A program made the position numbers and the translations under genes. DNA of 22,599 bases, taken from IMG/VR virus record IMGVR_UViG_3300025110_000143, positions 1 to 22,599 of that record; one strand, given 5' to 3'. Shown here in pieces: positions 1 through 21,321 of the stretch. This stretch comes from a virus. Within the stretch, counting starts at the first letter, position 1, and every line of letters starts with the position of its first letter. A model generated the notes under the pieces. The model ran no database searches, was not told the DNA's origin, and saw only the letters and a list, made by a program, of their open reading frames with translations.

Positions 1-2832
1 TACTTTGGCTACTTCTTCTTTATGCTCTTTGTTCCTTTTTCTTGCTGTTGAAAAAATTGGATTATCATTGCCGTCAAAATCCTCAAGCCAACCGATCTCT
101 CTGAGTTGCTTCTCTCTTTCTGGAGTTAAATCAGATCTCTTTTTATCTTTTAAAGATCCTGCAGCTTCAACAGTGTCAAACTTTGAATCTTCTAAAATAA
201 GTCTGTTATTAACCGTATCTAGAGCTACAACATACTGAGCAAGTAGATGCTCAACTTCTGGGGATGTTATTAAGTTTTCACCTGTCAGCGGGTCAATAAA
301 GATCTTACTCTCAGCTTTAAAGTCTCCTTTAGGTTTTCCTGCTGCGTCAAAGGTTACTCCTTTTCCTTCTAACATCCTCCTCATTCCTCCCAGTGTTGAG
401 AGAGATAGTTTTGTCAGTTTGTTGCCTAGAGTATTCTTGTTAAATTTATTTTTAAACAGAACGTCTTTAGCATTCCTAAGAAGTCCGAAGTGAGACTGTT
501 CACCAAAGTTAGCAAAGTGTTCAGAAAGAATTTCTGAAGTTATATTCTTCCTTCTCGTTGCTATATCACCTTTTAAATAATTCTCTTTAGCTTTCTTATT
601 CTGTCTTTTTTGCAGCTCGTACTGACCAAGTAAATAAGTGATTTGGTCTGTAGCTTCAGAGTCTCCTTGCTTAATAGCTTCATCTCTTATCTTCCTTGCT
701 TCTGTTATTTTTCTTCCAAGTGGAGAGTTTTGGTTTTGTTGATAAACTGCGTCAAGATACTGATTTTCAAAATCCAACATCTGTTTATCAGTATAAAGTC
801 CGTCACTCCTTCTATTACCAGCTTCATCAAAAGTGCCGAAAATAACCTGCTCAAGTTCTGCCCTTGTGTCACCAAAAGGATCAACCCCTTCACCTTTGTC
901 TCTCCCTTTTCTTTTTTTAGAAGGAGCAGAGAAGTATTCTGTAGGGTGAAACAGTTCGTGAAATAATGTTCTGTTTCTTCCTGTTCCACTTGCGTCTGTG
1001 TTTATATAAATCGTGTTATTTCCGTATTTATTATCATAAAATCCGTATTGAAATCTAGCGTTTAAATCAGGGTTGTCTGGATCTTTGCTTGCTGCCTTTA
1101 CCATTCCCTCCCCGTCTGTGTATTTAATATCTACGTTAGATCCTTTCTTGCTCATATAACCCTGAAACAACTGGGCAGCATCAGCTTCTGCAGCAAGATC
1201 AGAGACTCCCATTCTTCTATCTGGATTTAAGAAAGCTTTTCTTTGATCTTCTGGAAGTCGTGATGCGTAATCTGTGATAAATTCCTCATCAAGTTTAAGG
1301 CGTTCCATACCTCTAAACTTGTTCCTTACAAGCGGAGTGTATTTGGCTGCTTTCTCTGCACCGTACCCTAAACCTCCACCAAAGGCTCCGAATCCTGCAC
1401 CTGCAGCAGCTCCTTCAGCTCCACCTGCAACGTATCCGGTTCCCATTCCTATAGCTGTCCCTTTTGTTATCTTGTCAGCAAGATCTCCAGCATTTCTTAG
1501 GATCTTGTCAGAGAGTGGAGTATCAAGTAACTGAACCCCTTTTTGAATTGGATCCCTAAGTGTTCCTTTCTTCTTAACTATGCCAAGTCCTGTTTGTCTT
1601 CTGCCGCCTTTCTGGGCTGCTTCTGATACAACAGATACTATCTGCCCCGGTGTTCCAATTGCTCCCCCTTTAATCTTAACAACTTCACCAATGCCTTTAG
1701 CAGTTTGTGGAAATTTTTCTAAAAGCCTTCCTTCTTGGCCTAAGTTTGATATTCCTTGGCCTGCATACTCAATAAGTTTACCAGTGGAATCAACAAGTTT
1801 TCCTGTTCCTTTAGCAAATGAGGTTGCTGGTCTTTTTGCTATTTCTTTGCTTACAGAGTAAACCCTTGAAAGGGCATCTTTAGTTGTTTGTGTTGCTGGT
1901 CGTTTAAGGGTTTCTTTTGCTACATCAAAAATCTTCTTTGTAGTCCCTTGATTGATTCCCTTAATAACATTGTTAAGAGCTTTGTTAGCAGCTATTGAAG
2001 GCTTGCCTGCTACTCTTCCAACAGTTCTATATATAGATCCACCAAATAGAGCACCGGGATCTAAAACAATTCCTAAAGTGTCAGCAGAAGCTGGATTGAT
2101 TCCTTCATCATATTTTGCAGCATATTCATTAAGATCTTTATCAAGAAAATAACCTGCTGCTCTTATTGCATCTCCTACCCTGCTCTTTCTGTCTTCTAAT
2201 ATTCGCTTAGTTCTTTCAGCGAACATCTTATAACGTTCGTATCTAGCTTTCTGATTTTCATCAGCAGCTCTAAAAGGACGTTGAGCAAGATCTGCAGCTC
2301 CTGTTGCTATATCAACCCAACCCTCTGCTGCTGATAAGGCTGCTTCTGGAAAGATTGCAGTAGCTTTAAGTGGATCTTCTTTGAACTTGTCTGGGATTTG
2401 TTTGCCGCCTTCATAAAGATAGCTGAAAGCTTCTTTTGAAGCTTCTGGAAGCGTTTTAGTTGCCCAGTGCCAAAAACCGTTTCTGCCTTCTTCTTTCTCC
2501 TGTTGCTCCCACTCTTTGAATCCTTCAAGAGTATAAATACCGTCTTCGTACTTAGGTGCTCCTTCAAAAGTAAGTTCTTCACCTAGCAGGTCATCGTCTT
2601 CAGGAGCTGGATCAATTATTATATTTCCAGCTTCATCTTTTCTCCACTGGTCTTGAGGGACTTCTTCTCCTAAAAGATTTTCGTCTACCTCTTCACCAAG
2701 AAAATCACCGTCTGCAGGTGAACCTACTGGATCTGTTTCTGACGATAGACCAACAGGAATCTCTTCACTTACTTCTTCTAATTCAATAAGTGGCCCAGTT
2801 CCGGAATCAGTTCTTTTGACTTGTGGAGGCAT
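1..2832 (-). CDS. Giant internal virion/ejection protein with HExxH metallopeptidase-like motif (3' end beyond window)
   Basis: The minus frame is open from ATG at 2832 to the window edge, giving at least 944 residues with no stop seen. The start (MPPQVKRTDSG) overlaps the preceding gene by 26 bases. Residues 1-90 are very acidic and hold three LGEE motifs. Residues about 90-450 are helical and rich in Lys and Ala. Residues about 458-495 form a Gly/Ala-rich hydrophobic stretch of glycine-zipper type. Residues 625-629 read HELFH, preceded by a beta-like NTIYIN strand, which is the HExxH zinc-peptidase signature. Candidate third ligands are E659 or E661 (RAELEQ) and E771 (SEHF). Size and position at the end of the tail genes fit the large ejected protein of podoviruses (T7 gp16 or N4-type in role). 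No lytic transglycosylase motif was seen in the visible part. The ejection role is inferred from context; the peptidase assignment rests on the motif alone. Confidence 0.85.
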   Translation of the reverse strand, partial: MPPQVKRTDSGTGPLIELEEVSEEIPVGLSSETDPVGSPADGDFLGEEVDENLLGEEVPQDQWRKDEAGNIIIDPAPEDDDLLGEELTFEGAPKYEDGIYTLEGFKEWEQQEKEEGRNGFWHWATKTLPEASKEAFSYLYEGGKQIPDKFKEDPLKATAIFPEAALSAAEGWVDIATGAADLAQRPFRAADENQKARYERYKMFAERTKRILEDRKSRVGDAIRAAGYFLDKDLNEYAAKYDEGINPASADTLGIVLDPGALFGGSIYRTVGRVAGKPSIAANKALNNVIKGINQGTTKKIFDVAKETLKRPATQTTKDALSRVYSVSKEIAKRPATSFAKGTGKLVDSTGKLIEYAGQGISNLGQEGRLLEKFPQTAKGIGEVVKIKGGAIGTPGQIVSVVSEAAQKGGRRQTGLGIVKKKGTLRDPIQKGVQLLDTPLSDKILRNAGDLADKITKGTAIGMGTGYVAGGAEGAAAGAGFGAFGGGLGYGAEKAAKYTPLVRNKFRGMERLKLDEEFITDYASRLPEDQRKAFLNPDRRMGVSDLAAEADAAQLFQGYMSKKGSNVDIKYTDGEGMVKAASKDPDNPDLNARFQYGFYDNKYGNNTIYINTDASGTGRNRTLFHELFHPTEYFSAPSKKRKGRDKGEGVDPFGDTRAELEQVIFGTFDEAGNRRSDGLYTDKQMLDFENQYLDAVYQQNQNSPLGRKITEARKIRDEAIKQGDSEATDQITYLLGQYELQKRQNKKAKENYLKGDIATRRKNITSEILSEHFANFGEQSHFGLLRNAKDVLFKNKFNKNTLGNKLTKLSLSTLGGMRRMLEGKGVTFDAAGKPKGDFKAESKIFIDPLTGENLITSPEVEHLLAQYVVALDTVNNRLILEDSKFDTVEAAGSLKDKKRSDLTPEREKQLREIGWLEDFDGNDNPIFSTARKRNKEHKEEVAKV
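2572..2706 (-). repeat. Three copies of a (D/N)(F/L)LGEE(V/L) motif
   Basis: Residues 43-49 (DFLGEEV), 52-58 (NLLGEEV) and 81-87 (DLLGEEL) of the giant ejection protein repeat one short hydrophobic-acidic motif in a disordered-looking acidic region. The codons differ between copies, so the peptide rather than the DNA is conserved. A docking motif for another virion protein is a guess. Confidence 0.7.
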
Positions 2833-4291
2833 CAGGATCTTTAGCTTGTTTTAAGTTTCTTAAAGCTGCATCAACATCGACCAGTTCACTCTCTAAACGT
2901 TTTTTGTTTTCAGTGTCAACTGTGCTGCCTTTGTATTTTTGAAGCTCTTTCTCAATTTCTTTCTTTCGTGCTTCAAGGTCATCAGCACCTTGAGCTATAG
3001 ACGCTTGAGAAGGTTGTTGGGCTAGTTTGTTGTTTACCCTTTCTGCTGCTGGAACTTTAATAATCTTGCCGCCTACCTGAACAGCAAAAGGGAGAGGTTT
3101 CCCTTCTTTAATTAAACCTTTTAAATAAATATTAGCTTCTTCCTCATTTACAAAAGGCCCAATATCTTCAGGTACTACTGTAGGGATTTTTTTCTTTGTC
3201 TTTGAGTCAACTTCTACAAGTGGGCTTTCTATTTGTTTAAGTATGTCCTCAAAATATCTAGGGACATCCTTAACCAAAGGGAGAAGTTTCTCGTTCTCAC
3301 CTATGTAACTTTGAACAGTGGAAACAGCTTGTGTCTTCTTGCCTTCCACAGCGTCCCTAGCTGCTTCAATAAATGAATCTCTTAGCTCAGGAGTGAGTAA
3401 CTGCCCCTCGAAAATCTTGTTGGCTAAGTTTGCCACCTTAACAGGCAAGCCTCCAGCATCTGCTGCAGTTGCAAACTCACCCTCTCTAACAACAGATTCA
3501 GGATCTAAAGCCTTCATAAACTTAAAGACTATTGAAATGTCCTGCGGCCCTTTCAACGATCTTCCTTCTTTTTCTGCTCTATTTACAAGTGTTTTAATCT
3601 GATCAAAAGCCTGTCTTGATTGTACATACTGAGCTACTGTTTTTTCTTTCTTAACATCTTTCAGTGAAGTTCTCAGATCACCTTTTTCTTCTGATGTTAA
3701 TCCCCCGAAGATTCCCCTCTCTACATCTTTAGGGATAAGGCTTTTAGCTCTTAACTCAGAAAAACGTTCTTCCTTGTAGTACCAATCTTTTACTTTTTGC
3801 TTCAACTCTGTAGGGAGTTTTTTGAAATCTATATCTCCGTTTGGTGAAAGGTACTCACTAAAATCTAACATTTCTGCAGGATTCTGATCTTTGTACATTC
3901 TTAAAATTTTCTTTTGTTGAATATCAGAATTAACTGTACTTAACAGTCCTGTGAATTGATCAAGCATTTTTAACTCACCCGTCAATGTATCTAAATTTGG
4001 TTTGTACTGGCTTATTCCAAAGAGGTGTTTTTTCATTAAACCTTGAAGCTGATCAGCTCCTTCTGGAGAGTTAACGTCTTTAATTTTAGACCAACCGTCT
4101 TTAAAAGCTTTCAGTTCTGTATTAGACGTTTCTAATCTCTCTGTTTCTTTCTGTTTAACTTTATTCTGCAGCTCAAGAGCTACTTTTTCAGCGTCTAATT
4201 TGCCTCTTTTAATAGCTCCGTCGATTGCATCAGGAACTAAATTAGAACCAACTTGAAAAGCTGCCAAAAATGTTTTTCCGCTCATTGACAT
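2807..4291 (-). CDS. Internal virion (ejection-type) protein
   Basis: A 494-residue protein, mostly charged and predicted helical by eye, with no signal peptide and no long hydrophobic segment. The N-terminus (MSMSGKTFLAAFQVGSNLVPD) is mildly hydrophobic, and the last 60 residues are a Lys/Glu-rich helix (ARKKEIEKELQKYK). It lies between a Gly-rich ejection-type protein and the giant HExxH protein, where podoviruses encode their set of ejected internal proteins. An AGGAAAGG sequence about 12 bases upstream of the ATG could serve as ribosome-binding site. The next gene starts 26 bases before this one ends, suggesting coupled translation. I do not recognise a named domain; the role rests on position and composition. 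Confidence 0.8.
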   Translation of the reverse strand: MSMSGKTFLAAFQVGSNLVPDAIDGAIKRGKLDAEKVALELQNKVKQKETERLETSNTELKAFKDGWSKIKDVNSPEGADQLQGLMKKHLFGISQYKPNLDTLTGELKMLDQFTGLLSTVNSDIQQKKILRMYKDQNPAEMLDFSEYLSPNGDIDFKKLPTELKQKVKDWYYKEERFSELRAKSLIPKDVERGIFGGLTSEEKGDLRTSLKDVKKEKTVAQYVQSRQAFDQIKTLVNRAEKEGRSLKGPQDISIVFKFMKALDPESVVREGEFATAADAGGLPVKVANLANKIFEGQLLTPELRDSFIEAARDAVEGKKTQAVSTVQSYIGENEKLLPLVKDVPRYFEDILKQIESPLVEVDSKTKKKIPTVVPEDIGPFVNEEEANIYLKGLIKEGKPLPFAVQVGGKIIKVPAAERVNNKLAQQPSQASIAQGADDLEARKKEIEKELQKYKGSTVDTENKKRLESELVDVDAALRNLKQAKDPDASTSQKN

Positions 4292-4297
4292 AATATT

Positions 4298-5155
4298 TTA
4301 AACCTTTCCTGTTATTACACCTAAAGCACCTTTTTTACCTCCTAGAAGTCCTCCAGTGAAAGCTCCTAGACCTAGCCCAGCTACAGAGCCGAACATATCA
4401 GCACCTTGCTGCTGTTGGTTCATATAATCCTGAAACTGATTATTGTATGTATTTGTAGCTAACCCTAGCGATCTAGCTCCAGCATTTGGATCTTGTCCTA
4501 AACCTTGTCTGATTCCCATTGGTTGGAAAGGAGCAGCTCCTTGCTGTGCTCCTGCGATCTGCCCAAACTGAGCTACAGGTGTTGTACCTGATAAGTAACT
4601 AGCTGCATTAGCTAGACGCTGCTGCCTTAGACGGAAAGCTGCATTACCAACTCCAAAAGCTTCCGCTGCTGCTGGTGCTGCTCCGAAGACGTTACCTCTA
4701 GCATATTGCCCAGCTCTTTCAGCTTGTTGGATTTCTTCCCGCATACCGGGAGCAAGTGCATAACCAGATTCAACGTCTTCCAAAGCTGCTTTTCCTAAAG
4801 CATCTCTAACTTTTCTAAATTGAGGATCAGATAGTTCTAACTCTTCAAGTGATTGCTTAACAAATTCAGTTCCGTATTTTTTACGAATATCAAGCATTGA
4901 CTGTGCAATGCTGTCAGCACTTTCTTTCGCAAAATCCAATTCTTTTCTAGACTGATCAACATCACCAACACCTGTAAAATCAGCAACCTTTTCCTCCCCT
5001 GTTACAGGATCTTTATAGGTTGTTTTCTCTCCCATACGAGCAGCAGCCTCAATACGCTTCTTCAAAGCTAATAATGACGCTTCTGTTCTAACTCCTTCAG
5101 TAGTCGCTTCTGCGTAATTCGGTGGTTCCGGTGGATCTGGTGAATACAATCCCAT
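4298..5155 (-). CDS. Small internal virion/ejection-type protein with Gly-rich C-terminal segment
   Basis: A 285-residue protein. It begins with a proline-rich MGLYSPDPPEPPNY head, as is common in podovirus internal proteins made just after the tail genes. Residues 25-130 are charged helix, 150-190 are Ala/Arg-rich, and 195-250 are Gln/Gly-rich. Residues about 254-281 are a Gly/Leu/Ala hydrophobic stretch (GSVAGLGLGAFTGGLLGG) that could insert into a membrane. AGAGGAA about nine bases upstream is a reasonable Shine-Dalgarno. It is the first of three consecutive ejection-type genes. I infer that it takes part in the channel that carries DNA across the cell envelope; no enzyme motif is present. 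Confidence 0.75.
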   Translation of the reverse strand: MGLYSPDPPEPPNYAEATTEGVRTEASLLALKKRIEAAARMGEKTTYKDPVTGEEKVADFTGVGDVDQSRKELDFAKESADSIAQSMLDIRKKYGTEFVKQSLEELELSDPQFRKVRDALGKAALEDVESGYALAPGMREEIQQAERAGQYARGNVFGAAPAAAEAFGVGNAAFRLRQQRLANAASYLSGTTPVAQFGQIAGAQQGAAPFQPMGIRQGLGQDPNAGARSLGLATNTYNNQFQDYMNQQQQGADMFGSVAGLGLGAFTGGLLGGKKGALGVITGKV

Positions 5156-5157
5156 CT

Positions 5158-5586
5158 TTAAAATTCCTCTTTTATAAAAAGTTCTCTCACTGTTAAACTA
5201 ATACTCTCAAGATAATCTTTTCCTCCTGTGAGGAAGGCGGTCATCAAACCTAATTCTGTCAAAGTATCTCTAATCACTAAAGCGTAGGTACGTTTAGTTT
5301 TGCCAGCATCTTCCCAGCTATTGGCATCCTTCCAAGCATTGAGACAAACTAAATGCAGAGGAAGGAGATTATGCTTATGCTGATTAAAGAAGCTGTTATC
5401 TGGTAGCTCTACCAAGAGAAGGAAGGCTAAGTCATAAGTATCTGCCCCTTTCCAGTTCTCTTTATCATCGTACAAGTCATCAATAAACCTAGCTATTTTG
5501 CAGATGATATTTAGGTAAAGGTGTGCTTCCCTATTACCTCCAGCACAAAGTTTTACAGCTTCTGCTACCTTATCCTCGTAGCTCAT
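5158..5586 (-). CDS. Unknown helical phage protein with DDxxDD motif
   Basis: A 142-residue all-helical-looking protein, translationally coupled to the nozzle gene by an ATGA overlap at 5583-5586. It carries an acidic FIDDLYDD motif at residues 34-41 and a second Trp/Asp-containing helix (NAWKDANSWED, 83-93). The pattern is superficially like the Asp-rich metal site of isoprenoid synthases, but the protein is less than half their length and sits among tail genes. Tail assembly or a minor virion role is more likely. I have an impression that similar short proteins follow tail genes in other phages, but I cannot name the family. Confidence 0.8.
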   Translation of the reverse strand: MSYEDKVAEAVKLCAGGNREAHLYLNIICKIARFIDDLYDDKENWKGADTYDLAFLLLVELPDNSFFNQHKHNLLPLHLVCLNAWKDANSWEDAGKTKRTYALVIRDTLTELGLMTAFLTGGKDYLESISLTVRELFIKEEF

Positions 5587-7721
5587 TGGTCAGCCTCCAT
5601 AGTGTCCATAAATGCCCCTGCTTGAATACTTCTCAAGGCAACGTATTTATTTCCTGTGGTGTCTCCTGTGCTCTGCTGGATCTTAAACTGTAGCTCTCTA
5701 AAAGGATCGTACTGTGTGAGGCTGTATCTGAACCTTCTAACCTTTGCATCTGGTAAAGTGAAAGGCAGTGTAGTGGAGCTTGTCCCTACAGTTGCCTCTT
5801 CATTATCAACCAGTGCAGCATCGTAAAGTGTTCCGTAAATTGTTGTAGCTGTAGCTGCTGCTGATGCACTTAAAGAGAGCCTTCCTCCGTTTGCAAAAAA
5901 CAAAGTCTGCCCGTTACTTACTGCAATAGGTAAAGCATCAACAATAACACCCGAAGAGGTGTAATCTCCTATAGCGTAGCCAGCAGTTTTATTTATTGTA
6001 ACAGTTCCAGAACTGCCAAGAAATATCTGGCCTGATCCTGTTTCTAAATTTGTTACCAATCTATCCCCTTCATCTCCGTCCAGAATTGGGAGAATGTCTA
6101 CCTTGGCATTACTTCTATCAAATTCGTATTCTACAAAGTCTCCACTTTTTGGACTAAGCTGATCATTGAAAGCCAAGCCTCTTGTAACTGCTTGCCAAGC
6201 TGTATCTCTGTAATTGCTTCCGTCAAAGTTGTCTTGAAAATCTGTAGAAACAGCATTCTCTGGAGAGACGTAATCTCTCAGCTCCATTACATTGCCAACC
6301 TTGTCCAGTGTCAGAAGTTTCTCTGCATAACCACTGAAGGCTGGCACTGCAAAATCAATAGCTTTGACGTTATAGTCTGCATTCCCTTGCCAGTATCCTC
6401 CCCAGCTATTGGTATTTACATTGTATATCAGGAGGCAGTTGTTGACTGTGCTACTAAGTATTGGAACAGATAGCATAAACATTCCGTTCCAGAAAGTTGC
6501 TGAAGCCTGCTGAACTGCTGCACTCCAGTTTATTGAATCTATTAAATCTTGAATAGGATAGCTGATCACTCCTGCAGTGCTGGCTACCATTTCCTCAGCC
6601 ATTGTACGCTTTAGACTTCTTACTCCGTCCTTGCTTAAATAGAAGAGATCTTCACCAACCTGAGCGGCAGCCCTGTGGCTAACGCATCCACTTTTATTGC
6701 TAACCTGCCTAATAGTGAAGGTAGCTGTAGCATTGCCTGCTGTAGCTGTGGCTGCTGTTAAAGGATTGGTGTCAACCAGATAAACACTGTTCTCGCAAAA
6801 TACTACTACGTTAGTTCCTACCCAAGAGTACATTCCTGTCACAGTTTCCGCTCCTGTGCCTACTTTGAACGGATTTATCTTAGTAGTTCCTAAAGTGAAC
6901 AGTGTGCTGGGAATAGCTGCCTCTTCATTATCTCCTACTGCTGAACCTGTTAATGTTCCGAAGATCTTTGTAGCGTTTGCTGCTGCTTCTGCACTTACTG
7001 AAAAAGCTCCTCCTCCGCTAAAGGTTAATATCTGCCCTATATCTAAAGGCACAGGCAAAGCATCAACTTCAATGCCGCTAGTTGTGTAGCTTGCTGTAGC
7101 GTACCCCCCAACTTTATCTATTTTTACAAAAGCCGTTAGATTAGGAAGAATGCTGCTAACGTAAATATCATTATTAGTTTCGTCGTACGCAAAAACTCTT
7201 CCTGAGTTTGCTATTAGGTATTTAGCATTTAAGGGAGCTGAATCTGCAGCCACTGTTTTAACCCAAGTACCTCCAGAATACTTTAATTCAAATATCTTAT
7301 TACTACTGCTATCACTACTCCAATACATCTTATCAGCTATCTGGCACATATATGCAGGAGTAGTTGCAGGACTCATTGATCCAGCGACTGCACTTATAGC
7401 TGCTACTGTTCCGTTGCTCTGAATCTCATACAGAGATCCGTTTACTGCAGCTATCACTCTTTCTCTGCTGTCAGAGTCAAAGAAGTGTAACGTCTGTACG
7501 TTTATACTGTTAGTAGTACTACCTAGAAGATTTGCAAACCTGTGAAAGCCTCTTCTTGTTTTGAGAACCCCGTTAATCTCTGGGGCTAGATCTTTAATCA
7601 GTTCAGCTTGAGACTCGTTTAAAAGGTTCTCCCTGAAATTAGAGACTTGGCCACCTATAAAACTGGCCTGCCGATCGTACAGCAGAGTGTTGTCAACTGC
7701 ATCATTGAAATAGACTGGCAT
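5583..7721 (-). CDS. Tail nozzle protein (T7 gp12 / tail tubular protein B-like)
   Basis: A 712-residue beta-rich protein directly downstream of the adaptor gene, with a two-base gap. The N-terminus (NESQAELIKDLAPEINGVLKTRRGFHRFANL, about residues 35-65, here split as NESQAELIKDL and NGVLKTRRGFHRFANL) is the opening typical of podovirus tail nozzles, where the protein enters a beta-propeller. WGGYWQG at 440-446 and the repeated VYLVD, LFYLS and LLIYNV strands fit propeller blades. Two copies of a 66-residue module (203-268 and 578-643) are inserted. The nozzle forms the distal end of the short tail and the DNA exit channel. No Shine-Dalgarno is evident; the leader is CTAAAA directly before the ATG. 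Annotation by context and fold pattern is fairly secure, although similarity to T7 is distant. Confidence 0.82.
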   Translation of the reverse strand: MPVYFNDAVDNTLLYDRQASFIGGQVSNFRENLLNESQAELIKDLAPEINGVLKTRRGFHRFANLLGSTTNSINVQTLHFFDSDSRERVIAAVNGSLYEIQSNGTVAAISAVAGSMSPATTPAYMCQIADKMYWSSDSSSNKIFELKYSGGTWVKTVAADSAPLNAKYLIANSGRVFAYDETNNDIYVSSILPNLTAFVKIDKVGGYATASYTTSGIEVDALPVPLDIGQILTFSGGGAFSVSAEAAANATKIFGTLTGSAVGDNEEAAIPSTLFTLGTTKINPFKVGTGAETVTGMYSWVGTNVVVFCENSVYLVDTNPLTAATATAGNATATFTIRQVSNKSGCVSHRAAAQVGEDLFYLSKDGVRSLKRTMAEEMVASTAGVISYPIQDLIDSINWSAAVQQASATFWNGMFMLSVPILSSTVNNCLLIYNVNTNSWGGYWQGNADYNVKAIDFAVPAFSGYAEKLLTLDKVGNVMELRDYVSPENAVSTDFQDNFDGSNYRDTAWQAVTRGLAFNDQLSPKSGDFVEYEFDRSNAKVDILPILDGDEGDRLVTNLETGSGQIFLGSSGTVTINKTAGYAIGDYTSSGVIVDALPIAVSNGQTLFFANGGRLSLSASAAATATTIYGTLYDAALVDNEEATVGTSSTTLPFTLPDAKVRRFRYSLTQYDPFRELQFKIQQSTGDTTGNKYVALRSIQAGAFMDTMEADQ
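5793..5990 (-). repeat. Duplicated 66-residue module, copy 2, in tail nozzle
   Basis: Residues 578-643 of the nozzle protein (KTAGYAIGDYTSSG through LVDNEEA). It is the partner of the copy at 6918-7115. The nucleotide sequences have diverged well beyond the shared protein pattern, so the duplication is not recent. Confidence 0.85.
6918..7115 (-). repeat. Duplicated 66-residue module, copy 1, in tail nozzle
   Basis: Residues 203-268 of the nozzle protein (KVGGYATASYTTSG through VGDNEEA). It aligns without gaps to copy 2, with 37 of 66 residues identical by my count. Shared landmarks are VDALP, GQ.L.F..GG, AAA.AT and DNEEA. The glycine and alanine pattern suggests a small beta-sandwich module. 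Confidence 0.85.
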
Positions 7722-7723
7722 TT

Positions 7724-8902
7724 TTAGAAACTAAAATCATTTCGGGTATATGCTCCTGAGAGATCCTCGGGGATGATCCTCATAATTTTAGCTGTTTGAT
7801 TTGTTTCTGCATCTCTGGCCACTGCTAGGAGTCTATCCCCTTCACCAGTTTCCAGTTGTGCTTTTCCGTACTGTCTCTGCCTCTTTAGCATATCTGCAGT
7901 ACCGTATTTGATCAGTGCGTTATCTATTCCGCTGATCATCGGAGCATCTGTGTCAGCCGTTAGTGGCCTAATCTTTTTCTTCCCTAAAATTGTCAACTGT
8001 ATCGGTCCAGTAGAATCATACTCTGGCCTGTTGTATAATCTGACTCTCTGAAACTCAGACTTGGTTTCCCAAGCGTTCCAGTAGAACTTATCGTATCCTG
8101 TAATGTTCTTTACGATAATAGTGTCAGTAGTTTCCTCCTTGGACAAAGATGTAATCTCAGAATAACTTTCAAAAGTTACATTAGTTGAAGGACTTGCTGC
8201 CAAGGTGATTGTTTCCTTATAAATTCTGTCAGGATCACCCTTTAATTTTCCTACTACTTCAATTTTCTTCCCAGCATCTGCTGCATCGACTGCCTCAAAG
8301 TAAAGATCGCCGTTAACGAGATTAAAATTAATACCCACAGAGGAAATAGCAGAAAACTTATTAGCAGTTCCTTTCTCGTTAATTGATGACGGATCTGCCA
8401 TAAACTGCGTGATGATTTCTGAAGGGATGAGTTCTTCATTGTCTGCTGTTATTGCCAACACTTGTGAAATGTTCTGCGGTAAAATCAACTGATCACTGTA
8501 TCCTGAAGCGTAGGCTGTAGCTGCTGCCCCTGATCCAGATCCACCTGTAAAAGTTACTGTAGGATTGTCTTCGTAGTTCTGGCCTGCATTAGTAAGAACA
8601 ATCTCACCAACTGAATCATTAAACAGTTTAGCTGTTGCTGCTGCAGAGCTTCCTGTTGTGCTTGTAAATCCAACAGTAGGAGCTGAAGTGTAACCACTTC
8701 CTCCGTCTGTTAATTCAAGGTAGATGATCCTTCCGTCTGGTTCAGTTGTTACTCGATCAACTACAAGGCTTTCACGCCAAAGAGCTGAATCATAGATTAA
8801 CTGATGATGCTGCCTGACATACTCTTTGCATCTGGTGATGCTTGTACTGTCTGTTTTACCAACCAGATTGCAGATGTATGTGGCTATTTGTAAAAGTGTC
8901 AT
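7724..8902 (-). CDS. Head-tail adaptor / tail tubular protein A-like protein
   Basis: A 392-residue protein just upstream of the nozzle gene, starting in a TAATG overlap with the previous gene; AGGA eight bases upstream is the likely ribosome-binding site. It has the T7 gp11-like layout. There is an N-terminal helical part (residues 1-45, ending in the YDSALWRES segment), a beta middle, and a C-terminal helical part (DNALIKYGTADMLKRQRQYGKAQ, 327-349, then a helix to 370). In this family the helices bind the portal and the tail nozzle. Residues 59-131 are an inserted pair of glycine-rich GGSGY..APTV.FT repeats. Order and layout support the call; sequence similarity to T7 itself is low. Confidence 0.75.
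   Translation of the reverse strand: MTLLQIATYICNLVGKTDSTSITRCKEYVRQHHQLIYDSALWRESLVVDRVTTEPDGRIIYLELTDGGSGYTSAPTVGFTSTTGSSAAATAKLFNDSVGEIVLTNAGQNYEDNPTVTFTGGSGSGAAATAYASGYSDQLILPQNISQVLAITADNEELIPSEIITQFMADPSSINEKGTANKFSAISSVGINFNLVNGDLYFEAVDAADAGKKIEVVGKLKGDPDRIYKETITLAASPSTNVTFESYSEITSLSKEETTDTIIVKNITGYDKFYWNAWETKSEFQRVRLYNRPEYDSTGPIQLTILGKKKIRPLTADTDAPMISGIDNALIKYGTADMLKRQRQYGKAQLETGEGDRLLAVARDAETNQTAKIMRIIPEDLSGAYTRNDFSF
8510..8728 (-). repeat. Tandem glycine-rich beta repeats within the adaptor protein
   Basis: Residues 59-93 (containing LTDGGSGYTSAPTVGFTS and SSAAATA) and 98-131 (containing LTNAGQNYEDNPTVTFTG and GSGAAATA) are two tandem copies of the pattern LT.GG.GY...PTV.FT..G.G.AA.A. 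This pattern is widespread in bacterial and phage surface proteins. It looks like an insertion into the adaptor fold. Confidence 0.75.
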
Positions 8903-9921
8903 TAGGCAGTTCCTAAACCAAATACTTGAAACGTGAAACCCCCTTGAGGATCTCTAGGTGTAGCATCTGAGTAAACATCTTCAGTTCTGAGTTCAAAAGA
9001 TGAAGCTGTTTTGTTTACTGCTTTCGCTATCTGCCCGTAACGATTATTTTGTCCTATAGCCAATTCAAACCCGTTTCCTATAACGTGATACTTCACCCCC
9101 GGTAATGCTTCCTGAAATGTTACAGTAAATCTTCCTTCATCAATTCTGGTTATACCAGAAATATTAAAAGGATTCTCTATAGTTATGTTGTCAGAGGAAT
9201 CTAGTATAATGTGGGCAAAGGCTTTAATCAGCATTGCACTACTTTGGTTAACTGTTAAAACATCAGCGTCATCAGTCCCTGCAGTAGTTGGATTAATAGC
9301 TCTTGCTGCTGTAGCTAATCGAACGACCCCACTTGTAGTTGTTAATGCTGGTAAACTTTGTATTAACTTCTTAGGGGAAACTTGTGCTAGTCCTGCAGGA
9401 GACTCGTCAAATATCAGAAGTCTGTCGTTGTCCATATCTAGACTGCCTGATGTCAGATCTGTCTGCCCTGTTATAGCTGTTGTGTGTAGCCTTAGTTTTG
9501 CTGCTGTGTTGTTCGTTACGTTAACGTTACTGCTGTTAACCAGTTTAAACTCATCAGCTACTACTGCATTGATGCTGTCACTTGTTCCTACAAGTAACTT
9601 TGAAGATCCGTCTGATCCTCCTCCTATCATTGCCAAGTTGGAAGGATCTCCTGTGCTGTTGGTACTGCGTACCTTAACAGTCTGAGATCCCATATCCTCC
9701 AGCTTGGTGTTATCTACTGCATTGTTCCTGATTGTTCCTGTAGTAACAGGCTGAGGTGATGCAGTGCTGATCTTGTCAGCAGTCACAGCGTTAGTAGCTA
9801 ACTCTGTTGAACCTATTGAGCCAGCCGTTACAGTGGCATTGTCTACTAAATTATTTAGGGAGGCAGCCGTAACTGAGTCACCAGTTGTAAAGGTTGTTCC
9901 CTTGGTCAAATAGGTTCCCAT
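8902..9921 (-). CDS. Tail fibre protein (second fibre)
   Basis: A 339-residue protein with the Ser/Thr/Asn-rich, low-charge composition of trimeric tail fibres. Residues 30-75 contain fibre-type repeats (IGSTELATNAVTADKI, then IRNNAVDNTKLED). The middle is beta-rich. The C-terminal 85 residues (ISGITRIDEGRFTVTF and onward to FQVFGLGTA) look like a compact beta tip domain. No S74 chaperone is present. AAGG eight bases upstream of the ATG is the likely ribosome-binding site. It could instead be a short spike or collar fibre. The receptor is unknown. Confidence 0.7.
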   Translation of the reverse strand: MGTYLTKGTTFTTGDSVTAASLNNLVDNATVTAGSIGSTELATNAVTADKISTASPQPVTTGTIRNNAVDNTKLEDMGSQTVKVRSTNSTGDPSNLAMIGGGSDGSSKLLVGTSDSINAVVADEFKLVNSSNVNVTNNTAAKLRLHTTAITGQTDLTSGSLDMDNDRLLIFDESPAGLAQVSPKKLIQSLPALTTTSGVVRLATAARAINPTTAGTDDADVLTVNQSSAMLIKAFAHIILDSSDNITIENPFNISGITRIDEGRFTVTFQEALPGVKYHVIGNGFELAIGQNNRYGQIAKAVNKTASSFELRTEDVYSDATPRDPQGGFTFQVFGLGTA

Positions 9922-9924
9922 AGT

Positions 9925-10158
9925 TTAAGCCTTCTTAGCTGCTTTTTTCTTTGGGGCTGGAGTAATGCTAGAAGCTGCTTCAACGGCTGCCTCTGCTGCG
10001 TCCTGTGTCTTTGCTACACCGTGTCTAAGGAAGATTGCTAAAATAGCTGTTACTGCGATATGCAATCCCTCAGCTAGTGATGCCTCCTCTGTTGCCACTG
10101 CTGCCGCTGCACCCAAAAGGGAAGTCAACGCCGTCCAAACTGTCTTACTTTTCCACAT
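9925..10158 (-). CDS. Small two-helix membrane protein, holin candidate
   Basis: A 77-residue protein with two hydrophobic stretches (TALTSLLGAAAAVA, residues 9-22, and LHIAVTAILAIFLRHGV, residues 32-48). Ala-rich and then strongly basic residues (PAPKKKAAKKA) end the protein. Size, paired membrane segments and positive tail fit a small class II holin. The opening (WKSKTVWTAL) resembles small membrane proteins of other phages. The RBS is AAGGA seven bases before the ATG. No endolysin is in the window, so the lysis role is inferred. Confidence 0.65.
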   Translation of the reverse strand: MWKSKTVWTALTSLLGAAAAVATEEASLAEGLHIAVTAILAIFLRHGVAKTQDAAEAAVEAASSITPAPKKKAAKKA

Positions 10159-10162
10159 CTTT

Positions 10163-10315
10163 TTATCCTTTTTTTATTAACTGTCTTATCTTCAAAATAA
10201 TATAAACCAAACTGGCCAAGCTCACTCCGCATTTCAGAATAAGATCTATTTCCAGCATCAAATTTCCTATCCCCACTGTAGCACTAGCCAGCACCTTAAA
10301 GTCGTCAAGGTTCAC
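10163..10315 (-). CDS. Small membrane protein, holin or holin-partner candidate
   Basis: The likely start is GTG at 10315, preceded by a G-rich GGGGGGA, giving 50 residues (VNLDDFKVLASATVGIG...). A TTG at 10348 would give 61 residues. It has two hydrophobic stretches (VLASATVGIGNLMLEI, and ILKCGVSLASLVYIILKI) and a basic tail (RQLIKKG). It lies four bases upstream of the other small membrane protein, so the two are probably co-translated. A holin or holin/antiholin pair is possible. No family is recognised with certainty. Confidence 0.6.
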   Translation of the reverse strand: MNLDDFKVLASATVGIGNLMLEIDLILKCGVSLASLVYIILKIRQLIKKG

Positions 10316-10366
10316 CCAAATCCCCCCACTAATATATCTAATAAACAAATCAGAAAAACTAGCAGC

Positions 10367-10756
10367 TTATTCTGCCGCCTCTTCTGTTGCTTCCTCAAAA
10401 TCATCAGAGGCTTCTTCTGCGTCATCAGATTCTTCCGCTGGTGCTACCACTGGAGTTTCTTCAGCTTCGATAACAGCATCAGGATCACGTTGTAGTCCAA
10501 GCTGGGCTAAAGCCAAGTCACCAATATAAGTAGCATCATCTTTGTCAGACCCCCAAGCGTCCCAAGTTGGTCCAGTCACATTCAGTAAAGTTGAAACGAG
10601 TGGGTTGGTTCCCCAGACATCTTCTCCTTCAGGATTCGTAAACTTGCCCCAGCCAACTACGCTGAATTGCATTCCAAATTCTTGGGCTGAGTTTAGTGAT
10701 ACTGCTACTTTAGAAACGTTTAGCTCTGCTGTAGGTATTGTGTTTATTTCTATCAT
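10367..10756 (-). CDS. Unknown protein with acidic tail, downstream of fibre
   Basis: A 129-residue protein. The first 85 residues look folded and beta-rich, with several Trp (FSVVGWGKF, and TWDAWGSDKDDATYIGDLAL). The last 40 are Glu/Ala/Asp-rich and probably disordered (EESDDAEEASDDFEEATEEAAE in outline). It follows the S74 fibre gene immediately, suggesting a fibre-associated or fibre-assembly protein. The leader is A-rich with no clear Shine-Dalgarno. I do not recognise the family. Confidence 0.75.
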   Translation of the reverse strand: MIEINTIPTAELNVSKVAVSLNSAQEFGMQFSVVGWGKFTNPEGEDVWGTNPLVSTLLNVTGPTWDAWGSDKDDATYIGDLALAQLGLQRDPDAVIEAEETPVVAPAEESDDAEEASDDFEEATEEAAE

Positions 10757-10775
10757 TATTTTCTAATTTTTAAAA

Positions 10776-13658: not shown

Positions 13659-13661
13659 CGT

Positions 13662-14027
13662 TTAGTTCCCCATCCTACCGCTGTAGGCTACGTTCACTTT
13701 ACCTGTACCTGTTGCTGTGCAGAAACTTAGTCCTGCTGTGTAACCTGCAAACGTGATAGCTCCTCCAGTTCCATCTTCATCTGAAGTACAAGCTGAAAGA
13801 ATTCCTGTGTAATTACCTGACGTAGTAGCGCATTTTGTTGATCCGCTTGCATTACCGTCTTTTGTCAGTCTGTAAAATACTGGTACTGTCCCAACATTCT
13901 GAATTATCAGGAATGCTGGACTCATCGAGGTTTGAATTGTTGAATCTGTTGCTGATCCCGTAGGGACAGATAGCTCTAGGTTTATTGTTTCACCAAAGTT
14001 GTGGAGAACATCGTTTTGTGCGCTCAT
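13662..14027 (-). CDS. Unknown small beta-rich virion protein
   Basis: A 121-residue protein rich in Ser, Thr and Gly, with strand-like segments (ETINLELSVP, PAFLIIQNVGTVPVFYRL, GKVNVAYSGRMGN) and three Cys residues. The composition is that of a small structural protein such as a head decoration or fibre-base protein. Its place just before the fibre gene fits either. The leader is TATAAAAA with no Shine-Dalgarno. No family is recognised. Confidence 0.75.
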   Translation of the reverse strand: MSAQNDVLHNFGETINLELSVPTGSATDSTIQTSMSPAFLIIQNVGTVPVFYRLTKDGNASGSTKCATTSGNYTGILSACTSDEDGTGGAITFAGYTAGLSFCTATGTGKVNVAYSGRMGN

Positions 14028-14030
14028 TTT

Positions 14031-14291
14031 TTATAAATTCCAAATCTTTTTCATTTGCCGCTTTGTGTAGCGACTTTTCCACCCTCCTGCTTTCATCTCT
14101 GCAGATCTGCAGGATCTCTTAATCTGTTCTTTAGGAGAGAGTGGTTTTTGTTGGCCTCCGAAGCTAAAACTGGTTGGTACATCAACCTTCATCCACTTCT
14201 GGCCTCCTTCTTCAAAACTATCAAGATCAGGAGAGGCTAGGATTTCCCTAACCTCACCTGTCTCAACATTCCTATAATCTAACAAAGGCAT
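14031..14291 (-). CDS. Unknown basic protein with FmdB-like opening but no zinc cysteines
   Basis: An 86-residue protein starting in a TAATG overlap, with AAGG seven bases upstream. The opening MPLLDYRNVETGEV follows the shape of FmdB-type zinc-ribbon proteins (MPxYxYxCxxCG), but both cysteines are replaced. The C-terminal 40 residues are basic (KEQIKRSCRSAEMKAGGWKSRYTKRQMKKIW). It could be a nucleic-acid-binding or virion protein. Function unknown. Confidence 0.75.
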   Translation of the reverse strand: MPLLDYRNVETGEVREILASPDLDSFEEGGQKWMKVDVPTSFSFGGQQKPLSPKEQIKRSCRSAEMKAGGWKSRYTKRQMKKIWNL

Positions 14292-14584
14292 TAATCAGCC
14301 TTGTAAACAGGTATCCAATACTGAACCCCGTTTATACTAATAAGAACTCCCTCAACATCAGTTCCTCCCGGTGTTAAACCAGAAACTGCATAAGTTGTGA
14401 GATTTGTAGATCCGTCTTTATCGGACCCGTCAATTTTTGCATTTGTAAACTCCAAGAAAGGAGTTGCTGACTGTGCTGTAGAGGTGTCTCCGTTAGGGGC
14501 TTCTATAGCAATTGTCTTTGCGTTGTTATTTCCTCCGTCAGTTGAATACTGACGACCTTCTAGTGCTTTTCCAATTATTGGCAT
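14291..14584 (-). CDS. Unknown small virion-region protein
   Basis: A 97-residue protein, neutral and Thr/Gly/Asn-rich, with a C-terminal beta hairpin-like end (VEGVLISINGVQYWIPVYKAD). It has a strong ribosome-binding site, AAGGAGG nine bases before the ATG, unlike most head genes here. It lies two genes after the capsid gene, where decoration or completion proteins are common. No family is recognised. Confidence 0.75.
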   Translation of the reverse strand: MPIIGKALEGRQYSTDGGNNNAKTIAIEAPNGDTSTAQSATPFLEFTNAKIDGSDKDGSTNLTTYAVSGLTPGGTDVEGVLISINGVQYWIPVYKAD

Positions 14585-14586
14585 TT

Positions 14587-14865
14587 TTACATTCCTCCTT
14601 CAGCGTCGATTTTCATCATCTCTGCCATTAGTTCATCGCGGCCCGGTCCTTCTTCAACTACTTCCTCTTCTACAACAGATTCCTCTGCTGGATAAGCAGG
14701 CTCTCCGTTGACAGTTTCCATAGCAATCTCGACCATATCCCCGTCCATTTCTGAGACAGTCCCTTCAATAGTGAAGGAAACTGCATCACCTTTTTCAGGT
14801 GAGAGAACCTCACCCTCCTCGCCTGCCATTTGAAGGCTGGCTACTGGTATCATTACGTTTGGCAT
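14587..14865 (-). CDS. Unknown small acidic protein following the capsid gene
   Basis: A 92-residue, strongly acidic protein. Residues 23-55 look like a small beta domain (GDAVSFTIEGTVSEMDGDMVEI). Residues 60-92 are Glu-rich (VVEEEVVEEG), ending in MAEMMKIDAEGGM. Short acidic proteins of this type often follow capsid genes in phages. Its ATG lies 11 bases after the GC-rich hairpin that closes the capsid gene, and no Shine-Dalgarno is visible. Confidence 0.75.
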   Translation of the reverse strand: MPNVMIPVASLQMAGEEGEVLSPEKGDAVSFTIEGTVSEMDGDMVEIAMETVNGEPAYPAEESVVEEEVVEEGPGRDELMAEMMKIDAEGGM

Positions 14866-14876
14866 AAGTATAAACC

Positions 14877-14898
14877 GGGAGGGGAATTACCCCCTCCC
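14877..14898 (-). terminator. GC-rich hairpin after the capsid gene, possible partial terminator
   Basis: An exact inverted repeat, GGGAGGGG (14877-14884) with CCCCTCCC (14891-14898), has a six-base loop. On the minus strand it is followed by GGTTTATACTT, a weak U-rich tract. It sits between the capsid stop and the next ATG. It may act as an attenuator or an mRNA-stabilising hairpin that favours capsid expression. Confidence 0.6.
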
Positions 14899-14912
14899 AG
14901 TGGTTAATAATC

Positions 14913-15944
14913 TTAGCTGTAGTTTGTACCACTATAAACCTGAGCCAAGAATTTCGGCTGTAGGATCTTCTGACCGTAGTAGGTCTTGAAGCCAACAGTG
15001 GTGAGCTGTGCTAGTGGATCAGTTTTGTCTGGTCCCTGAGCAATAGACATCTTAGGAGCATAAGGACTCTGAGAAGCTAAATCTACAGTGCCAAAGGCTT
15101 GATCACCAAAGACCATTGTAGAGAAAACGCTTCCTGTGTTGCTGTAAGTTACCCGATTAGCTGCTGCAGCACCGTGAGCAGTTTGATAAGAGTTAGTTGT
15201 TTCAATGCAACGAATACCTGCATAACGTCCAACTTCACCCTTCATAATTGCATCAGGATCACCGTAGTGACGAGAACTAATCCAATCAGAATCATTCTGC
15301 AAATCACGCAATACTCTTGGATCAGCAACAGCAGTATAATAGCCGTTAGTGGCTGGAGCATTGTTAACCTTCAGAGCTGTAGCTGTGTCCAGTAACTCAA
15401 GACCTGTCATCACCTGAGACGATGTAGGAGCTGCTGAGTAATAAGCTGAAGCACCAGCAAAACGATTAATTTTGTTAGCTGTGATTGTAGTGCCTCCAGT
15501 GATCGAAGTATCATCTGCAAGTGTGTAAAGGATTTTAGTATCCAAATGTAGAGCTGCGTCCTGACCGTTAACAGTAGTAGCCTGCTCCATATGATTAAAT
15601 AATTCCTGAGCTGTAAGTAGATCAGAAATACCAATCACCTGACCGTATTGGCTGAGTGTTACGTCAACATACTCAAGAGTCATTTCCTTGTACGCACCCT
15701 TAGCCCAAGCTGTGCCTGAACTGTGTCCATCACCTTCGGTAAGACCTTTGATGTTACTTGTCTCTGGTTCTACATAACGGAAAAACCTAACTGAGTTTTT
15801 CCCCGCCTTTTCTGGAAGAGCTTGCTTTTTGGCAAACTGTTCTAGAACGATGTTTTGAACTATTTGTTTTAATAGTTCTTTACTGAAAAAAGCTTGTAAA
15901 CTGTTACTAATGCCAGTTGAAGCTGTGTCTGTAATTCCTGCCAT
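14913..15944 (-). CDS. Major capsid protein, N4-gp56 family
   Basis: A 343-residue HK97-fold capsid protein. The N-terminal signature of the N4-gp56 family is clear: SNSLQAFFSKELLKQ, then IVLEQFAKKQALPEKAGK and NSVRFFRYVEP (about residues 13-59), then GLTEG. It continues with the E-loop/P-domain pattern (EYVDVTLSQYGQVIGISDLL) and GYYTAVADPRVLRDL. It follows the scaffold gene by 13 bases, as expected. The leader is ATAAAATAGAAAA directly before the ATG, with no Shine-Dalgarno. No N-terminal prodomain is visible, so assembly probably relies on the separate scaffold. Confidence 0.93.
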   Translation of the reverse strand: MAGITDTASTGISNSLQAFFSKELLKQIVQNIVLEQFAKKQALPEKAGKNSVRFFRYVEPETSNIKGLTEGDGHSSGTAWAKGAYKEMTLEYVDVTLSQYGQVIGISDLLTAQELFNHMEQATTVNGQDAALHLDTKILYTLADDTSITGGTTITANKINRFAGASAYYSAAPTSSQVMTGLELLDTATALKVNNAPATNGYYTAVADPRVLRDLQNDSDWISSRHYGDPDAIMKGEVGRYAGIRCIETTNSYQTAHGAAAANRVTYSNTGSVFSTMVFGDQAFGTVDLASQSPYAPKMSIAQGPDKTDPLAQLTTVGFKTYYGQKILQPKFLAQVYSGTNYS

Positions 15945-16904: not shown

Positions 16905-17255
16905 CTAATTGGTTCTAGGGTTCAGTAACCACTCAAGATCATCTGTGACTCCTTCTTCTATTGGAGCTTTTTCTGGTTGTCTTACCATTAGCCCGTCAAT
17001 AGATGCCAGAGCACCCTTAAAACCTGCAGCCCAACCTGCTTCATAAGCGAGATTAGCCTTGCTGCTGGATATTAGTTTCTCCATTTGATGCAAGTGCAAC
17101 GACAATAAAGAACTATTTAACTTCTGGCCTGTTGTTGAACCGAAGAAAGCTCTGAGTGCTTCCGTATCCTGATCACTCCACTGCTGGGGTTTCGGGTATC
17201 CGTTGTTCCGGTTGAACGCCCTCAGCGTTCGCCATTTCTGCATTAGCTTGTTCAT
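16905..17255 (-). CDS. Unknown small protein overlapping the portal gene
   Basis: About 116 residues from ATG at 17255. ATG codons at 17243 or 17291, or a TTG at 17306, are alternatives; none has a good ribosome-binding site. The first 80 or so bases overlap the portal C-terminus in another frame. Clear protein-like features begin with WSDQDTEALRAFFGSTTGQKL, followed by a helix and the small-residue segment EAGWAAGFKGALASIDGL. Small proteins with this W..ED...L..FL.T..G..L pattern often sit between portal and scaffold genes. Function unknown. Confidence 0.75.
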   Translation of the reverse strand: MNKLMQKWRTLRAFNRNNGYPKPQQWSDQDTEALRAFFGSTTGQKLNSSLLSLHLHQMEKLISSSKANLAYEAGWAAGFKGALASIDGLMVRQPEKAPIEEGVTDDLEWLLNPRTN

Positions 17256-19839: not shown

Positions 19840-19891
19840 AACCAAAAGCTTGTTTTAGTATTTCCAAAATTAATCTTATTACCTTTATCAT
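19649..19891 (-). CDS. Partner of the nested lipoprotein, inner spanin-like candidate
   Basis: 80 residues, starting in an ATGA overlap with the large terminase stop. The N-terminus is a hydrophobic amphipathic helix (MIKVIRLILEILKQAFGYA), followed by a strongly charged part (KETEKTQIRKQASDRRDRKL). The last 30 residues are low-complexity (Gly/Glu/Arg/Pro) and share DNA with the lipoprotein frame. The membrane segment is marginal compared with a real inner spanin. The terL-coupled start and the nested lipoprotein support a real gene. Spanin function is inferred from arrangement only. Confidence 0.55.
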   Translation of the reverse strand: MIKVIRLILEILKQAFGYAKETEKTQIRKQASDRRDRKLSALDSWLQNPSKVGQHEEASGDEPRGIQGRTGEQPSGEEVR

Positions 19892-21321
19892 CCTATGTTA
19901 ATCCCCATTTGTGTCCGTAGTTGATTTTCATCATTAAGCTCCATCAACCCCTCTGCAAAGATGTCCTCTAGTGTTGCCTGTTTAGGTCCAGAATCCATTA
20001 GAAACTCTGAGCTGTAGGAGGCTGCCATTACAAAGGCATCAGCTCTGTCTGGACTACTGAATCCTCTGGCTCTGCATTCTGCTTTGCTTTCCAGATTTAG
20101 CTTCCCTGTCTTTGTAGTCTGTACTCTTCTATTTGTAAGCTGTGCGTGCAGGATCTCATCGTCTGGTAGAACAATATCAGCCTTCTCTATTTGTCTGGCT
20201 GCATTAAACCACATCTCTGCAGATCTATTCGCAAATCTGTCAGGCTCAAAGGCTCTACTGCCCAGATTGATCTGGTGCATTGGCCAGCCCATTTCTGCCA
20301 ACTGTTGGGCCATTGGCAGCCCTAATCCTCCAGCATCACAAAAGATCTGTTGAGGCTTCAGACCTGCTCTTTCAAACTCCAAGGCAAACCTACCACAGGC
20401 TGCCATTGTATTCTTATCTCTCCAACTGATCAGCTTTGTAACGTGGTTGCCTGTCCTGATACAGATAACATTCTCATCAGCTCCTGCTGCAAAGTCCACA
20501 GCAGCCACTACCTCACCCTTCTGTTTCTTTGGAGGATTCTCCAGACAGTGCATCAAACTGTCCCAAGGGATAACTGTGGACTCCCCAGACTCTTCCATAA
20601 ACTCAGCCCGTATCATCGAACTGATCAAAGGATGTGATGCTCCCCACTTCTCTATCTGTTGCTCGATCCACTTGGGATCTATGTGGGGGCAGTCGTAGGC
20701 AGTGACTGTATGTAAATCCCAAAACTCCTGCTCCTTACTAAAGCATTTATAAAACTGCCCCTTACAGCCTCCCGGTGATGACATCAGTAAAACCCTATTT
20801 GGCTGGCATCGTTCCAGTGCCATAAATATTTCATCTTTTACCGTCTTTGCTTCATCAATTACCATCAAAAGATTATCAGCGTGCCAGCCCTCAAACCTAC
20901 CGGGATCATCTGTGCTAAACCCTATCACCCTGCTTCCGTTAGGTGTACTCAGTTCAGTCTGATTAATCTGTATCCCCAATCCTCCAACCTTTCTAGCCAA
21001 GCTTCTTATAGTTGGCCACATCTGTTCCTTCACCTGCCTGTAAACTCCTGAAGTAGTTACGCAAACGCTATTAGGATACATCAAAGCGTGCCACAAGGCT
21101 GCAGGTGCTGCGCACATTGCTGTCTTCCCTGATCCGTTGGCTGCCTTTAGTGCTATCCTAGTCTTAGGTTTACTAAGGCTCTGCAGCACCTTCTTCTGCC
21201 AAGGATGCAGTTTCAGCTTAAAGATCTTCTCTGCAAAAAGATCACAATCAGAGTCTGATCTTTTCTGCTGTTTCTGCTTTGTAGAATGCGTTTTGTTTTT
21301 TTGTTCTGCTTCTGTCTTCAT
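19888..21321 (-). CDS. terL: Terminase large subunit
   Basis: A 477-residue DNA-packaging motor with both expected domains. The ATPase has Walker A ANGSGKT (61-67), Walker B LLMVIDEA (151-158; D156, E157) and the coupling motif LLMSSPGG (178-185). The N-terminal LHPWQKKVLQSL (38-49) is the adenine-binding Q-motif. The RNase H-like nuclease has D276 (AAVDFA), D329 (FCDAGG) and D425/D428 (SPDRADAF). The protein binds the portal, translocates DNA into the procapsid and cuts concatemers. The start overlaps the nuclease gene by 74 bases; AGGAAGGA is 11 bases upstream. The next gene starts in an ATGA overlap with this stop. Confidence 0.96.
   Translation of the reverse strand: MKTEAEQKNKTHSTKQKQQKRSDSDCDLFAEKIFKLKLHPWQKKVLQSLSKPKTRIALKAANGSGKTAMCAAPAALWHALMYPNSVCVTTSGVYRQVKEQMWPTIRSLARKVGGLGIQINQTELSTPNGSRVIGFSTDDPGRFEGWHADNLLMVIDEAKTVKDEIFMALERCQPNRVLLMSSPGGCKGQFYKCFSKEQEFWDLHTVTAYDCPHIDPKWIEQQIEKWGASHPLISSMIRAEFMEESGESTVIPWDSLMHCLENPPKKQKGEVVAAVDFAAGADENVICIRTGNHVTKLISWRDKNTMAACGRFALEFERAGLKPQQIFCDAGGLGLPMAQQLAEMGWPMHQINLGSRAFEPDRFANRSAEMWFNAARQIEKADIVLPDDEILHAQLTNRRVQTTKTGKLNLESKAECRARGFSSPDRADAFVMAASYSSEFLMDSGPKQATLEDIFAEGLMELNDENQLRTQMGINIG

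Follow-up and report, generated by a model that had tools for sequence, protein, structure and literature searches.

The processing of phage polyvalent proteins by their own metallopeptidase (MPTase) domains was proposed by Iyer, Burroughs, Anand, de Souza and Aravind in 2017 (PMC5512222). In that paper, polyvalent MPTases combine an HExxH helix, a three-stranded sheet, a variable insert between helices and a glutamate on a second, C-terminal helix, and they occur in multidomain giant proteins together with ART modules. The same authors give the virion RNA polymerase (vRNAP) of phage N4 as a counter-example, since this protein carries a related domain and is packaged unprocessed. Other systems considered here include phage P1 DdrB, a polyvalent head protein with an HExxH MPTase, the phage family PHROG 87, annotated as "metallo-protease", and the IrrE/PprI proteins (M78). 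IrrE cuts a repressor protein in trans.

The window analysed here, 22,599 bp in length, is the complete record of an uncultured virus whose major genes are all encoded on the minus strand. It codes for the following main features, together with a scaffold-like protein and several head-tail and internal structural proteins:

1..2832, minus strand: giant polyvalent/ejection-type protein, residues 1-944, with an ATG start and open at the window edge
2807..4291, minus strand: 494-aa neighbour of the giant gene, a candidate internal virion protein from its position, matching phrog_13634 (unknown function)
5583..7721, minus strand: 712-aa structural protein, weakly matching families of internal virion proteins and of virion structural proteins
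10776-13658, minus strand: tail-fibre-like protein whose C-terminal part matches the S74 intramolecular chaperone domain (E=2e-12)
14913..15944, minus strand: major capsid protein (phrog_1357, E=4.7e-44)
17173-19059, minus strand: 628-aa protein at the portal position, without a family match
19888..21321, minus strand: terminase large subunit, whose nearest isolate phages infect Akkermansia

The giant gene, whose start is overlapped by the gene of the 494-aa protein, is the last of the structural cluster and is cut by the end of the record. Its HExxH lies at the end of a podovirus-like cluster of structural genes, and from its position after the capsid and tail genes the giant protein is probably injected into the bacterial host. 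The nearest relatives of the terminase are those of Akkermansia phages (32-38% identity), so a host among the Verrucomicrobiota is likely on sequence grounds; the terminase suggests an uncultured podovirus group on this phylum.

In the window the giant ORF comprises 944 aa, and full-length versions of 2019 aa, 91% identical, are present in two records (L002 and L003). The preliminary description of this DNA had recognized an HExxH signature, HELFH, at residues 625-629, after NTIYIN and within positions 901-1020; these positions were confirmed, and the motif is conserved. The features of this part of the protein are:

1354..1461, minus strand: Gly/Ala-rich stretch, approximately residues 458-493, N-terminal to the MPTase; from its sequence, a possible membrane or packing segment
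478..1215, minus strand: MPTase domain as modelled, residues 540-785 (alignment A7, structure model, fold and profile searches)
1000..1017, minus strand: NTIYIN, residues 606-611, the final strand of the zincin sheet, preceding the HExxH helix (alignment and model)
946..960, minus strand: HELFH, residues 625-629, with predicted zinc ligands H625 and H629 and predicted general base E626
532..534, minus strand: E767, an invariant residue of SEILSEHFANF and the candidate for the third zinc ligand, placed on a helix by the model

By composition, 0.004 HExxH motifs are expected in the 944-aa protein, and one is observed. The MPTase domain is under purifying selection, with a dN/dS of 0.12 for codons 540-785 as compared with 0.36-0.45 for the N-terminal parts of the gene.

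A degenerate DNA pattern for FHELFHP, combined with profile searches, recovered a second subfamily at 31-37% identity. A check of the relatives for loss of H625, E626 or H629, set beforehand as an argument against the enzyme, found all three residues invariant, both in the 14 close and moderate relatives and across 18 MPTase domains extending down to ~15-25% identity. In the 18-domain set the only other invariant positions are the Asn and Asp of an IN-x-D motif, one Tyr of the insert, and E767. The third ligand had been tentatively placed at E659 or E661 (in RAELEQ) or at E771, and none of these is conserved: the former two are replaced by D, A or T or shifted in relatives, and the latter is Asp or another residue. 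Conserved instead is E767 (SEILSEHFANF; group B counterpart RELMSDYFAMF), whose position and sequence context resemble those of a zincin third ligand. The earlier interpretation is therefore partly supported, being right on the domain and wrong on the third ligand.

A first structure model (350 aa, 14 sequences) reached a pLDDT of 65, and its fold searches were swamped by the helical insert. For fold comparison it was replaced by a second model, trimmed to residues 540-785 and built from a deeper and diverse alignment (pLDDT 76, pTM 0.69). The secondary structure of this model is H4-23, E29-33, E58-61, E68-72 and H80-95, with the HE of the motif at 86-87, followed by the helical insert; model residue E228, which corresponds to E767, is located in the last helix (218-242). 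The predicted structure thus places HExxH on a helix after three strands and the conserved Glu on a later helix, the element order (helix-strand-strand-strand-HExxH-helix) of the zincin-type metallopeptidase that had been suggested from the sequence. In the case of VIA-align, IrrE (3dti) was matched with Z 7.9 over 93 residues at 2.9 Å (model 9-240), along with 3dte and 8sln, and the protease domain of lethal factor (4dv8) with Z 7.0 over 143 residues (model 1-246). Helical proteins that match only the insert reach Z values as high as IrrE, so the fold-search Z alone is not decisive. Foldseek against the PDB gave no significant match for either model, and the A3 profile gave only chance matches there; the A7 profile, searched against the whole PDB, placed two IrrE proteins on top (E 0.0055 and 0.028). 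PHROG 87 is matched with E=2e-5 over ~64 residues up to the HExxH, without the third-ligand helix and in only 4/18 family members, and Pfam M78 (PF06114) scores 14.0 bits, below its gathering cut-off of 22 bits. Because the fold match, the IrrE-first profile result, the PHROG 87 match and the sub-threshold M78 score agree, the domain is very probably a zincin-like MPTase.

Set against the described systems, the domain shares with the polyvalent MPTases of Iyer et al. the HExxH helix, the three-stranded sheet, the Glu on a second C-terminal helix, the variable insert, the giant multidomain setting and the ART modules, and it is a new clade of this known kind. It differs in its defining pattern, IN-x-D...HE[LVTM]xH...Y...E-[IL]-x-[SA]-[ED], and in that tblastn with the giant protein or with the three MPTase groups found the domain in no isolate phage of the searched collection; with P0002 as query, the match was confined to the C-terminal half. 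The C1 domain of N4 gp50 also presents an HExxH, again within a giant protein that a podovirus-like virion ejects, and it aligns in register at the HExxH, very weakly (0.7 bits); unlike the present proteins, gp50 is without FMP (the separator described below), carries different cargo and is reported to be packaged unprocessed (PMC5512222). P1 DdrB is likewise in register and weak (4.2 bits), and it differs in its C-terminal MPTase, the absence of FMP and its cargo. Among solved structures IrrE/PprI ranks first by profile and is a plausible relative by fold, where the match covers the whole core; against this, the present family lies below the M78 cut-off, separates HExxH from the third Glu by a long insert, and lacks a repressor-cleavage context. 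PHROG 87 is alike up to the HExxH, and the third-ligand helix falls outside the match.

The half of the protein that is missing from the window contains a repeated motif. Full-length relatives carry [FY]MP at residues 1136, 1148, 1307, 1972 and 1998 (0.1 expected), and because the window stops at residue 944, ahead of the first of these sites, the separators of the window protein itself are inferred from its 91%-identical relatives. In the giant ORFs of the relatives, [FY]MP occurs 42 times where 2.1 are expected, whereas the remaining ORFs of these contigs together contain it once (2.6 expected). A DNA scan for DIRFMPA, a pattern picked for the motif alone, added 28 loci that encode the peptide in frame; in 25 of these the ORF is of the polyvalent type, long or truncated, and contains 1-10 sites. 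The separator consensus, [RQN]-[FY]-M-P-[AGS], is found at 64 sites in 18 non-redundant proteins (~3 expected), a count that includes proteins picked by the DIRFMPA pattern, in many of which one site is the seed itself. Several comparisons connect the motif with module boundaries, modules being inserted or exchanged exactly at it: where L003 has a single motif, L027 has two, with an additional ART-like module enclosed by them; in the otherwise close proteins of L008/L036 and L032/L033/L035, the whole C-terminal module is exchanged after GGQVR-FMP; and of the points where homology between relatives breaks off, 25% fall within 5 aa of a motif, compared with 3% for random positions. The flanks of the motif are slightly more disorder-like. 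In these relatives, then, one short motif stands at most module junctions and is tied to one protease clade.

The cargo modules that follow the MPTase chassis include ART-like, "QSDW" and DUF7178 modules, among others. The QSDW module, GGENYREL...E[LVF]QSDWHQ.GR...PDAPFK...ITPEMR..GQ..F, is located at ~1480-1780 of P0002 in L003 (A5), where it has no Pfam or PHROG match; it is widespread, occurring alone in phage proteins of 500-800 aa as well as inside giant polyvalent proteins. The DUF7178 module (E=1e-25) forms the C-terminal cargo of L008 P0005 (residues ~1952-2067), and an unrelated 300-aa module takes its place in close relatives. In L064, the MPTase chassis (1665-6890) and the cargo array (6857-12595) are two overlapping ORFs; the cause is either an assembly frameshift, a programmed frameshift or a genuine division of the gene close to the first separator. 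The polyvalent ORF 7754-14917 of Dolichospermum phage Dfl-JY45 (L038) has repeated ART-like and QSDW modules and an HEVVGH motif, and at the ends of its junctions F-[SAY]-R seems to take the place of FMP; other phage groups may have separators of their own.

The association between separator and MPTase was examined from both directions. In FMP-bearing ORFs the MPTase lies N-terminal to nearly all separators, the exception being one of the ten sites of L054, which is upstream. As a comparison set, 160 loci were collected via the unrelated QSDW module; most of their giant proteins have some HExxH and few have FMP. The idea that any MPTase implies FMP was accordingly discarded, as most FMP-free polyvalent proteins also carry HExxH. 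A profile of the FMP-associated MPTase scored 107-274 bits in the FMP proteins it was derived from or in proteins closely related to them. In the non-redundant FMP-poor giants all scores stayed below 27 bits (60/60), and none reached 50 bits (0/60; Fisher p=1e-5). Five FMP-selected records outside the profile (L041, L042, L050, L058 and L064) matched it with E<1e-29, and L214 and L045 matched more weakly. The HExxH domains of L054 (10 sites) and L062 fall outside this clade; of the followed-up FMP records lacking the profile, L045 and L062 have an HExxH in the same ORF, and records without any MPTase (L051, L066, L068) have ORFs that run off their contigs. For the reverse test, 45 records were picked by HELFHALE, and among their newly fetched ORFs 17 reach a stop within the locus. 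Each of these contains 2-5 FMP motifs (17/17), every motif lying at least 552 aa C-terminal to the HExxH. The ORF 5033-11992 of L214 has five [FY]MP motifs and an MPTase reading TEELGHH, in which the first His is lost and the later Glu motif (QEIGAAQFS) is retained; judged from these residues, it is possibly a natural inactive or re-tuned protease. The end of the QSDW module follows the same division, FMP proteins having ...GQ..F-MP[AGQ], whereas elsewhere residues other than MP come after ...GQ..F (F-S/Q/A/E...). A quick QSDW tree requires three changes; polyphyly of the modules from FMP proteins, which would show convergence on FMP, was not upheld, the AU test favouring a single clade (p=0.996), and for this reason no convergence is claimed. 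An association of FMP with the MPTase is expected if the separator is a protease site, and shared descent could also give it.

As judged from its codons and variants, the separator is a protein-level signal. Its wobble bases vary (TTC, TTT and TAT; all four CC_ codons), and a DNA-level recombination site was set aside on this account. In L056 (3145-aa ORF), FMP and FLP both occur at equivalent junctions, three of five FLP sites using CTT codons, so the middle residue of the separator tolerates Leu. The view that FMP marks internal translation starts at the ATG of Met-Pro, by which modules would also be made separately, draws on the resemblance of MPA, MPS and MPG to protein N termini and on a mean Shine-Dalgarno complementarity slightly above that of other internal Met codons (-3.6 versus -2.7 kcal/mol); it is nonetheless very improbable, because many sites have no Shine-Dalgarno-like sequence, the Phe or Tyr before Met is conserved, and FLP serves at equivalent junctions. 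Still less credit is due to the notion that HELFH arose by chance in a protein without enzymatic function: the weak family scores (Pfam 14 bits against 22) speak for it, and it is largely refuted by the low expected number, the invariance across 18 domains, the model, the IrrE fold and profile matches and the dN/dS.

The comparative evidence points to self-processing of the polyprotein over cleavage of peptidoglycan or of a host protein, targets that the preliminary description had offered together with virion proteins. That the MPTase cuts its own polyprotein at or near the FMP separators is the likeliest of the explanations considered, though a tentative one, at somewhat below an even chance. 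Counting against it are the five separators that L214 keeps beside its degenerate MPTase, the HExxH domains of L054 and L062 outside the clade, possible co-inheritance, the N4 precedent, and the middling Z values, Foldseek result and M78 score. Should the MPTase be active and instead be directed, after ejection, at a host defence protein or regulator or at the cell wall, FMP would serve docking or packaging in place of cleavage; among solved folds the closest, that of IrrE, belongs to a protease acting in trans, L214 keeps its FMP motifs despite a degenerate protease, and a docking or unfolding motif for packaging would also sit at linkers. This reading is rather unlikely, and it leaves unexplained that FMP tracks one MPTase clade and is missing from most other MPTase-bearing polyvalent proteins. 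Further down the scale stands a structural or packaging role of the domain, as a pseudo-enzyme or assembly domain, which has a precedent in N4 vRNAP: according to Iyer et al. (PMC5512222), its MPTase-bearing region is needed for encapsidation and the protein remains unprocessed. The in-register gp50 match, very weak as it is, and the ligand lost in L214 agree with such a role; catalysis fits better than structure alone, because very divergent homologues all retain H, E, H and the distant Glu, and the dN/dS is 0.12. Because N4 vRNAP is packaged unprocessed, both the structural and the host-target explanations stay alive. It is improbable that FMP is processed by another phage or host protease while the MPTase has a different job: P1 DarA is processed (as noted in the P1 record) though it has no HExxH of its own, and L214 retains FMP beside its degenerate site, but the association of FMP is with the MPTase clade, and no prohead-type protease was found among the part of the window ORFs annotated by the family scan.

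Under the self-processing reading, the zinc ligands would be H625, H629 and E767, with E626 as the activator of water. The constant N-terminal half with the MPTase would serve as a chassis for the interchangeable cargo modules joined behind it by separators, and the MPTase, in cis or in trans, would cut at or near [RQN]-[FY]-M-P-[AGS], freeing the modules during virion maturation or after ejection. The wider proposition, in which a large, uncultured phage group pairs a constant MPTase chassis with swappable injected effectors, each joined by a standard [RQN][FY]MP[AGS] that the protease clade of the chassis recognises and cuts, with separator and protease co-evolving, is somewhat less probable still.

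As far as searched, an MPTase clade tied to a repeated module separator is new, and the link is directly testable. The FMP separator was found neither in the examined passages of Iyer et al. (PMC5512222) nor in the literature searched, where nothing relevant turned up on FMPA or on the cut sites of phage MPTases. Although MPTase processing of polyvalent proteins has been proposed since 2017, no cut site is named in the literature searched, and the FMP separators supply an explicit candidate substrate for these MPTases that is cheap to test. Since the separators mark module boundaries, unknown injected effector modules can be separated from giant phage proteins by eye or by script. If cleavage is demonstrated, these phages would possess a polyprotein system of protease and linkers of their own, much as eukaryotic RNA viruses do.
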